Positions 1 through 15,419 of a DNA stretch of 64,000 nucleotides are shown here, one piece after another. Source of the stretch: Niveispirillum sp. (GTDB taxonomy: Bacteria; Pseudomonadota; Alphaproteobacteria; Azospirillales; Azospirillaceae); contig NZ_JAGOGJ010000003.1 in the NCBI RefSeq assembly GCF_017996735.1, forward strand, positions 1 through 64,000, read 5' to 3'. The translations under genes were made by a program, and so were the position numbers. Position 1 is the first letter of the stretch; the number at the start of each line of letters is the position of its first letter. The notes under the pieces were generated by a model that searched no databases, was not told the origin of the DNA, and saw nothing but the letters and a program-made list of their open reading frames with translations.

Positions 1-619
1 GGTCGGTTCCCGTCAAATCGGGGTAACCTGTCACCCAGGTGACCCCGTCCGCCGTTTCGACCCCTGCGCCGAACCGGCGCAGCAGGGTCAGCGCGGGTTC
101 CAGTTCCGGCAGCGCATCCACGCCGGTGCGCCCGGGGCTGTTCAGTCCCGCCAGCAGGATCGGCAGGGCCGCAGCACCGTCCAGACCCGCATGGTGGGCC
201 GGCAAGGGCCAGGCGGCACCGGTGATCGAACCGGGCAGTTGGTCACCCCGCCCCAGCACCAGCCGCGCCCCCACCCGCTCCAGCGGGGCACGCAATGCCG
301 CCAGCGACAGGGGAGCTTGGCCCGAGTCGGCGGCCAGGACGCAAGGAAAGGGCAGGGTGGCCAGCATTCCCGCCAGCAATGCCGCCGCCCCTGGCACCAG
401 ACCCAGTTCCAGCACCCGCCCCGGTTCCCGCCAGCCGCCGGTGCCCGTGCCCCGCACGGTCCAGCAGCCCTGGCCATCATCGTCCAGGCGGGCCCCCAGG
501 GCCGTCAGCGCCGTGGCCAGTTGCCTTGCGCCATCCCCCTTGCCACCGGAAAGCCGCGTTGTGCCACGGGCGGCGGCGGCCAGGATCAGGGCCAGGGAAG
601 AGAGGTCCGTTTGCGCCAT
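1..619 (-). CDS. EPSP-synthase-like protein, catalytically degenerate, C-terminus outside the window
   Basis: The frame is open from an ATG at 619, which has an AAGG 7 bases upstream, to the window edge: 206 codons with no stop. Its order of short blocks follows the class II (CP4-like) EPSP synthases: LAAAARGTTRLSG, a TGTGGW stretch where CP4 has a GNGG stretch, LLAGLNSPG where CP4 has LLAGLNTPG, then RRFGA, ADGV and LTG. The active-site blocks are gone. The PGDKS lysine/serine motif is missing from the N-terminus, and the FGNAxT, KRPM and SAQ motifs are replaced by unrelated residues. It diverges from the TIGR02300 gene, a place where I recall alphaproteobacteria keeping aroA. It probably cannot make EPSP; a non-catalytic role or slow decay are both possible. 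The CP4 comparison is from memory. Confidence 0.72.
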   Translation of the reverse strand, partial: MAQTDLSSLALILAAAARGTTRLSGGKGDGARQLATALTALGARLDDDGQGCWTVRGTGTGGWREPGRVLELGLVPGAAALLAGMLATLPFPCVLAADSGQAPLSLAALRAPLERVGARLVLGRGDQLPGSITGAAWPLPAHHAGLDGAAALPILLAGLNSPGRTGVDALPELEPALTLLRRFGAGVETADGVTWVTGYPDLTGTD

Positions 620-817
620 CGGTCTGCCTTGCGTGACATCGGGTGCCCGCCGGGCATAGCATGGAAGCCGGGGGCCGGGAAGCCGGCCGCCGGTGCCCGC
701 ATGGCCGTAACACGCACGAACCGTCACACTTCCGTTTGACAGGGGGCGCCAGCCATGGCAGATGCGGCCACAACCGCGGCGCATTTCCAGGCGCGCGTGA
801 TTTACGGAGGTATTGCC

Positions 818-1222
818 GTGGCCAAACCCGAGTGGGGTATCAAGCGTATCTGCCCGAATTGCGGCGGACGTTACTACGACATGAAGAAGGACCCGCCGAC
901 ATGCCCGTCGTGCGGCACCGTCTTCGATCCCGAGGCGCTGCTGAAGTCGCGCCGCGCCCGTCCCCTGCCGGTGGAGGACACCAAGAAGGTGGTCGCCCCG
1001 CGTGACGAGGAGGCGCTGGATACGGAGGTCGAGGAAGGACTGGACGAGGTCGCAGAGGACATTGTCGATGACGATGTCGACGTCGCCGACGAGTTGGAGG
1101 CCGACGAGGTCGATGACGGCGTGGGCGAGGACGAGGACGTCCTGCTGGAGGATGCCGACGAGCTGGATGACGGCGACGACATGGGTGAAGTCGTCGATGT
1201 CGAAGGCGAGGAAGAGGTCTGA
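818..1222 (+). CDS. TIGR02300 family protein (zinc-ribbon-like head, acidic tail)
   Basis: 134 residues. The start is a GTG at 818, chosen because a strong ribosome site (ACGGAGG, 804-810) lies 7 bases upstream and because family members begin with the same AKPEWG stretch; the upstream in-frame extension to 755 lacks such a site. Two CxxC pairs (CPNC, CPSC) flank a RYYDM motif, the local version of the family's KFYDLN, and probably bind zinc. From about residue 65 the chain is dominated by Asp and Glu. Function is unknown for the whole family. It sits between the degenerate EPSP-synthase-like gene and tRNA-Ala. Confidence 0.9.
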   Translation: MAKPEWGIKRICPNCGGRYYDMKKDPPTCPSCGTVFDPEALLKSRRARPLPVEDTKKVVAPRDEEALDTEVEEGLDEVAEDIVDDDVDVADELEADEVDDGVGEDEDVLLEDADELDDGDDMGEVVDVEGEEEV

Positions 1223-14039: not shown

Positions 14040-15311
14040 TCAGTCCCGCGCCACCAGTTCGACGCCCAGCGAGCGTAAGGCATCCCAGTAGCCGGGATAG
14101 GTCTTGGCCACACAGCCCGGATCCAGGATGGTGATACCGCCGATCTTCAGCCCCGCCAGCGCAAAGCACATGGCGATGCGGTGGTCGGCATAGGTGTGGA
14201 TATCGGTGGGCAGGGTCTGGCCCGCCAGCGACGGGTCGGCCGCCACGATCAGATCGTCACCTTCCTCCCACGCCAGACCGGGCCGGATCTTCGCCAGTTC
14301 GGTGGACAGCGCGCGGGTGCGGTCGCATTCCTTGACCCGCAGGTTGGAAATGCCCACGAAGCGGACGGGATGATTGTTGAACGCGGCCAGCACGGCCAGC
14401 GTCGGCACCGCGTCCTGCATCTGCGATCCGTCGATGACGGAAGGCATGTTCGGGAACTGCGCAATGACGGCCTGGGCACAGGCGTCGGGCTGTGTGAAGG
14501 CATCCGACGGCACACCCAGATCGATATGCCCGCCCGTCAGCACCTCCGCCGCCCAGAGATATGTGGCGGCCGAGGCATCGGGTTCGATCACATAGTCGGC
14601 GGCCCGGTAGCCGGTGGGCAGGACCCGCCAGGTGGCGGCATCCTTCTGCTCCACATCGGCCCCGAAGGCGCGCATGGCGGCGACCGTCAGGTCGATATAG
14701 CCCCGCGCGCCGATATCGCTGCCGGTCAGGGCGATATCGATGGGGCCGGTGGAACAGGCGGCGGCCATCAGGATGGCGCTGACATACTGGCTGGACAGGC
14801 CGGCATCAATCTCCGCACGGCCCCCCGCCAGGGCACCCTGGCCGCGCACCGTGACGGGGGGGCAGCCGGTCGGCGCCTCCAGATCCACGCCCAGCGCCGT
14901 CAGCGCCGTGACCAGCGGGCCGATGGGCCGCTTGCGCATATGCTCGTCCCCATCGACGACCACGGTGCCATCGACGGTCGCAACGGCGGCGGTCAGGAAC
15001 CGCGTGGCCGTGCCGGCATTGCCCAGGAACAGCGACCCGGCCGGTGCCGTCAGCTTGCCGCTGCTGGTCACGATGAAGCTGGTGGCGTCAGGTTCATCGA
15101 CCGTCACACCCATCTGACGCAGGGCGTTGGCCATGTGGCGCGTATCGTCGCTTTTCAGCGCACCGGTCAGGCGGCTGGTCCCGGCGGCCAGCGCGGCCAG
15201 CAGCAGGGCGCGGTTGGTAATGGATTTCGATCCCGGCGGGATGACCCGGCCCGTCAGGGCATGGGTCGGCGGGATGATCGTCAAAGCCGCCTTGCCCGTT
15301 GCCGTCACCAT
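14040..15311 (-). CDS. aroA: 3-phosphoshikimate 1-carboxyvinyltransferase (EPSP synthase), intact
   Basis: 423 residues from the ATG at 15311, with AAGGGG about 8 bases upstream. It joins shikimate-3-phosphate and PEP in the chorismate pathway (cytosol). Active-site motifs are complete: GSKSITNR (Lys29, Ser30, Arg34), LFLGNAGTATR, RKRPI, SSQY, VKECDR, YADHRIAM and AKTYPGYW. The wording LFLGNAGTA and DHRIAMCF resembles E. coli-type class I enzymes rather than the class II (CP4-like) enzymes common in alphaproteobacteria. It sits alone beside the restriction-modification pair rather than beside cmk/rpsA, consistent with acquisition and displacement of the gene at 1-619. Confidence 0.95.
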   Translation of the reverse strand: MVTATGKAALTIIPPTHALTGRVIPPGSKSITNRALLLAALAAGTSRLTGALKSDDTRHMANALRQMGVTVDEPDATSFIVTSSGKLTAPAGSLFLGNAGTATRFLTAAVATVDGTVVVDGDEHMRKRPIGPLVTALTALGVDLEAPTGCPPVTVRGQGALAGGRAEIDAGLSSQYVSAILMAAACSTGPIDIALTGSDIGARGYIDLTVAAMRAFGADVEQKDAATWRVLPTGYRAADYVIEPDASAATYLWAAEVLTGGHIDLGVPSDAFTQPDACAQAVIAQFPNMPSVIDGSQMQDAVPTLAVLAAFNNHPVRFVGISNLRVKECDRTRALSTELAKIRPGLAWEEGDDLIVAADPSLAGQTLPTDIHTYADHRIAMCFALAGLKIGGITILDPGCVAKTYPGYWDALRSLGVELVARD

Positions 15312-15419
15312 CACCCGCACCCCTTTGCTGTCGCCTGCAAAACAGGCCGCGACCCTAGCAAGCGGGCGGGCAGGCGGAAAACCCTTTTGCCATGCCGTTT
15401 GCAACAGGGGCGCGTTGCA

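Follow-up and report, generated by a model that had tools for sequence, protein, structure and literature searches.

How does a reading frame that resembles EPSP synthase come to stay open when every catalytic motif of the enzyme has been replaced? EPSP synthase, the target of glyphosate, is a textbook enzyme of two domains, both of which are needed for its active site. A sequence-only reading of the window, which is the whole stretch of 64,000 nucleotides from a Niveispirillum genome analysed here, had described at its first positions an open but catalytically dead copy of this enzyme, either retained for a non-catalytic role such as chorismate-pathway regulation or decaying slowly. Our findings identify a gene of one domain only, held under purifying selection, and the features on which the argument depends are the following.

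1..619, minus strand: gene of a probable single-domain EPSP-synthase-like pseudoenzyme, 206 codons in the window and 211 aa in total, with the last codons and the stop at contig C76:1-45
620..754, no strand: divergent intergenic region between the pseudoenzyme gene and the TIGR02300 gene, with a conserved CATGCTATGCCCG block
755..1222, plus strand: TIGR02300 / FYDLN_acid gene, the ancestral divergent neighbour of aroA
14040..15404, minus strand: working AroA, a divergent EPSP synthase (TIGR01356, 334 bits; all catalytic motifs intact)

The same part of the window also carries a tRNA-Ala (GGC) at 1349-1424, downstream of the TIGR02300 gene, and an ORF at 1823-2959 in which RTX-like glycine/aspartate nonapeptide repeats precede a dissimilar C-terminal part.

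The frame runs on the minus strand from an ATG at 619 to position 2 without a stop, and position 1 is the edge of contig C248. The start of contig C76 of the same assembly overlaps the start of C248 (1-28) by 28 bases with one mismatch and continues past the overlap with five further codons (LTAGP) and a stop, so the full protein has 211 aa and a single domain. Next comes an SDR gene, on the other strand and tail to tail with the pseudoenzyme gene; the extension past position 1 that the sequence-only reading had proposed reveals no C-terminal domain, and neither cmk nor rpsA follows. The frame also begins at the PGDKS loop, which means that the first strand of the enzyme is absent; in the EPT fold this strand packs in the other domain. 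The picture of a full-length dead EPSP synthase must therefore be abandoned, since the protein lacks its first N-terminal strand as well as the C-terminal domain. A stop just outside the window had been counted in advance against the reading, and one is indeed present, but it is the conserved end of the one-domain gene shared by all six relatives and not a stop produced by decay. With a size of 7.47 Mb and 4.3% contamination, the assembly may be a mixture of closely related strains.

Membership in the EPT/EPSP synthase superfamily, on which the sequence-only reading depended, is borne out by profile searches. The window protein matches Pfam EPSP_synthase (PF00275) at E 1.9e-6 and 27.3 bits, above the curated cut-off of 22.8 bits, over profile positions 19-227 of 417, and five of the six relatives match the same profile at an E-value of at most 1, G003 alone falling under the cut-off with 19.8 bits. 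The TIGR01356 aroA profile matches at 3.1e-8 and 32.8 bits, below its equivalog cut-off of 287 bits, while a profile of the one-domain family matches EPSP synthases in the PDB at 2.5e-20. In a scan of the genome contigs, the window protein alone as query gave no match; the alignment as query recovered four relatives and the canonical enzymes.

A functional enzyme has two domains around its active site, and here the frame of every species stops after 205-216 aa. The catalytic and substrate residues of a functional enzyme (KS, R, NSGT, KRPM, SAQ, RDHTE) are all replaced in the five complete copies. For instance, the PGDKS-xSHR (PGDKSISHR) position now reads MAQTDLSSL or similar in all complete relatives, the NSGTAAR block has become, e.g., LVPGAAA, and none of these relatives retains the KRPM, SAQ or TRDHTE block. 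The persisting landmarks are LLAGLNSPG (LLAGLN-PG), FGA (LLRRFGA) and several Trp/Gly/Leu positions. What had been claimed of the motifs in the window alone, catalytic blocks gone and LLAGLNSPG and FGA kept, consequently extends to all complete relatives.

A comparison of the five complete copies with 98 canonical enzymes shows which residues were kept. Among 77 columns that are at least 95% conserved in the canonical enzymes, the five copies all retain 30, which are mostly fold residues (Gly, Leu, Pro, Ala, Trp and Phe), and the substrate-binding and catalytic positions are lost. At 14 columns that are at least 90% conserved in the canonical enzymes, all five copies have a different residue in common (L to W63, Y to H143 and E to L177 are examples), and 24 further shared new residues occur at less conserved columns. 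Some of these shared replacements may have been fixed on the stem, without time to change since, and the omega test described below is the stronger evidence.

The one-domain form, of 205-216 aa, occupies the same site in 6 of 11 Niveispirillum genomes, including those of Niveispirillum lacus 1-14 and strain AAP38 and two metagenome assemblies. Its length is 211 aa in G003, 216 in G008 and 205 in both G010 and G006. Start, end and neighbours (TIGR02300 divergent, SDR convergent) are common to G000, G003, G006, G008 and G010; G005 agrees by its visible part, a matching tail. In five genomes the one-domain gene and the SDR gene have directly adjoining stop codons; in G008 about 30 bases separate them. 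In a murA tree, the six carriers form one clade (support 95) with G001, G002 and G009 as sister group (98). The shared SDR junction indicates a single truncation before the species split, and all divergence among the copies is accordingly post-truncation.

As the ancestral divergent neighbour of aroA, TIGR02300 identifies the locus as the place where the class II aroA used to stand. At this site, three other genomes of the genus (G001, G004, G007) and two of the family (G012, G019) carry TIGR02300, a full-length class II aroA, cmk and rpsA, with a GST gene intervening in this order in G007. In the six carriers, cmk and rpsA are located elsewhere. A division of the old gene into two complementing halves is ruled out: in the genomes examined (G000, G002, G006, G008), the neighbourhood of cmk contains no C-terminal part of aroA, and Pfam detected none elsewhere. 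The SDR-HTH pair that abuts the one-domain gene sits elsewhere in G001 and G002, so that one side of the rearrangement can be located.

Upstream of the pseudoenzyme start, the CATGCTATGCCCG block and an AAGG are kept in all five complete species. A similar block, CCCCATGCTATGC, lies upstream of TIGR02300 in G009, a genome without the one-domain gene, so CATGCTATGCCCG may belong to the TIGR02300 promoter. A promoter scan returned a single site only, on the opposite strand.

EPSP synthesis itself falls to another gene. A second full-length aroA with intact motifs is present in all six carriers, 14-110 kb from the one-domain gene. It is about 67% identical to the enzyme of another Azospirillaceae genus (G014) and patchy in the family, and for both reasons it looks horizontally transferred: judged by sequence, the working AroA looks like a divergent xenologue that took the place of the class II enzyme. 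Two genomes of the sister group, G002 and G009, possess the second aroA and retain nothing of the one-domain gene; a search for a hidden copy beside TIGR02300 in G009 found none (best E 0.32).

This co-occurrence bears on the idea that the protein, as a single domain, regulates the replacement AroA or some other shikimate or chorismate enzyme, or helps to assemble it. The replacement AroA accompanies it in all six carriers, and the isolated N-terminal domain of E. coli EPSPS can bind shikimate-3-phosphate (S3P) according to Stauffer 2001, as cited in PMC3411725. A shikimate partner is nevertheless not indicated, because the residues that contact S3P and PEP are gone, the genes stand far apart, and G002 and G009 use the same replacement AroA without the protein. 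Chorismate-pathway regulation, as suggested by the sequence-only reading, gained nothing specific from our analysis; a role in either pathway is possible, and we consider it doubtful. The absence from G002 and G009 without apparent loss also suggests that the one-domain gene is dispensable at the scale of the genus.

Structure prediction is consistent with a free-standing domain. An AF2 model reached a mean pLDDT of 91.5 and a pTM of 0.90 with a 43-row alignment made up mostly of canonical enzymes, which favours the EPSPS fold. This model matches EPSPS crystal structures with a TM-score to the query of 0.84-0.88 (E 5e-19), and matches 3ti2, an isolated EPSPS N-terminal domain, almost end to end (TM 0.87 by query, 0.82 by target). 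The model from an alignment of the one-domain copies only is poor (pLDDT 60), yet it still finds EPSP synthases first (E 3.8e-12). The domain is thus predicted to have the EPT fold, and the E. coli EPSPS half in PDB 1p88/1p89 folds alone.

Retention and slow decay were the two outcomes that the sequence-only reading had left side by side, with dN/dS named as the arbiter. Under decay, the frame would be a class II aroA pseudogene kept open by GC-rich codon usage, and the loss of the catalytic residues, the complete loss of the gene in G002 and G009, and a protein that evolves faster than any neighbour are all in keeping with it. The substitution patterns are not. Every pair of copies has a pN/pS within 0.39-0.61, whereas simulated neutral evolution of the same sequence gives a 99% interval of 0.75-1.64; even the recent G010-G006 pair falls outside this interval. 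A codon model gives a maximum-likelihood omega of 0.174 (lnL -2707.2), and fixing omega at 1 is worse by 117 log units (lnL -2824.1, the best among the kappa values tried). Every indel has a length divisible by three, and internal stops and frameshifts are absent from all copies over a tree that spans about 1.8 synonymous substitutions per site; neutral simulation on the same tree predicts 4-13 stops over the five tips, and all frames stayed open in at most 3% of neutral runs, even with halved branch lengths and a GC of 0.83. New residues fixed where the canonical enzymes are conserved also speak against decay.

A pseudogene lacks purifying selection on its frame; this reading frame has been under such selection since the truncation, and neutral decay is rejected. 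With omega well below 1, the test chosen in advance favours retention, and slow decay becomes improbable. The constraint is weaker than that of ordinary and neighbouring genes (omega 0.17 versus 0.04-0.12), which gave 0.04 for the second aroA, 0.05 for SDR, 0.06 for HTH, 0.12 for TIGR02300 and 0.07 for canonical class II aroA.

The DNA might instead be conserved for another reason, such as an opposite-strand gene or a regulatory element, and a long plus-strand frame is in fact open at 39-659. This is highly improbable, given that the translation is homologous to EPSP synthase and that pN/pS is 0.40-0.43 in the minus-strand frame versus 0.43-2.4 across the five remaining frames, where the minimum belongs to the antisense register that shares third positions. 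An assembly or contamination artefact, suggested by the start of the window at a contig end and the one difference in 28 bases from the overlapping contig, is refuted by independent assemblies, in which the one-domain gene is embedded in long contigs (G006, 3.4 Mb; G010, 306 kb; G008, 298 kb), and its probability is negligible.

Taken as a whole, the locus very probably encodes a selected, non-catalytic, one-domain protein. In the explanation that we favour, the ORF is the remnant of an ancestral alphaproteobacterial class II aroA. Once a second, divergent aroA had taken over EPSP synthesis, a rearrangement put the SDR gene inside the old aroA, and what stayed behind was the stretch between the PGDKS loop and the inter-domain crossover, precisely one of the two globular domains of an EPT enzyme. 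A bolder reading, to which we give a probability of roughly 0.55, is that this natural free-standing EPT domain, its catalysis lost after enzyme replacement, has been put to a new use in binding, with new residues fixed at positions that were formerly highly conserved. If translated and folded as a free domain, this protein would bind rather than catalyse, its partner most likely being another protein that sits at the face once covered by the second domain. That it works specifically by binding a protein partner has, in our judgement, about an even chance.

The short form appears confined to this clade. None was found outside it among 82 genomes of the family, and in 289 sampled alphaproteobacteria no short form was confirmed elsewhere among the matches listed. 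Two short frames among those matches were rejected, both having intact motifs: one in G227 lies at a contig end, and one in G131 is a frameshifted canonical aroA. In the open-access literature, outside which most subscription journals lie, we found no description of an EPT pseudoenzyme, a single-domain natural EPSPS or a truncated aroA of this group. If the favoured explanation is true, the locus would offer a dated example, in steps, of an enzyme that was replaced, lost a domain and may have taken on a new role; it is directly testable, as a single genus holds carriers, intact ancestors, losers and cultured strains.

Three known systems place this protein in context. The replacement AroA of the same genome likewise belongs to the EPT family and matches the EPSP synthase profile, but it is full length with intact motifs, and the one-domain protein is only about 30% identical to it. 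The class II (CP4-type) AroA of Azospirillaceae is closer, being homologous (38-41% identity over the shared part) and alike in its TIGR02300-side locus and domain fold, whereas the one-domain protein is half as long, lacks the C-terminal domain and the first strand, and retains none of the catalytic and ligand residues of the region. The isolated EPSPS N-terminal constructs of E. coli (1p88/1p89) and V. cholerae (3ti2) have domain limits that match it almost end to end; these are laboratory truncations with intact S3P residues, whereas the Niveispirillum protein is encoded by a natural gene from which those residues are gone.
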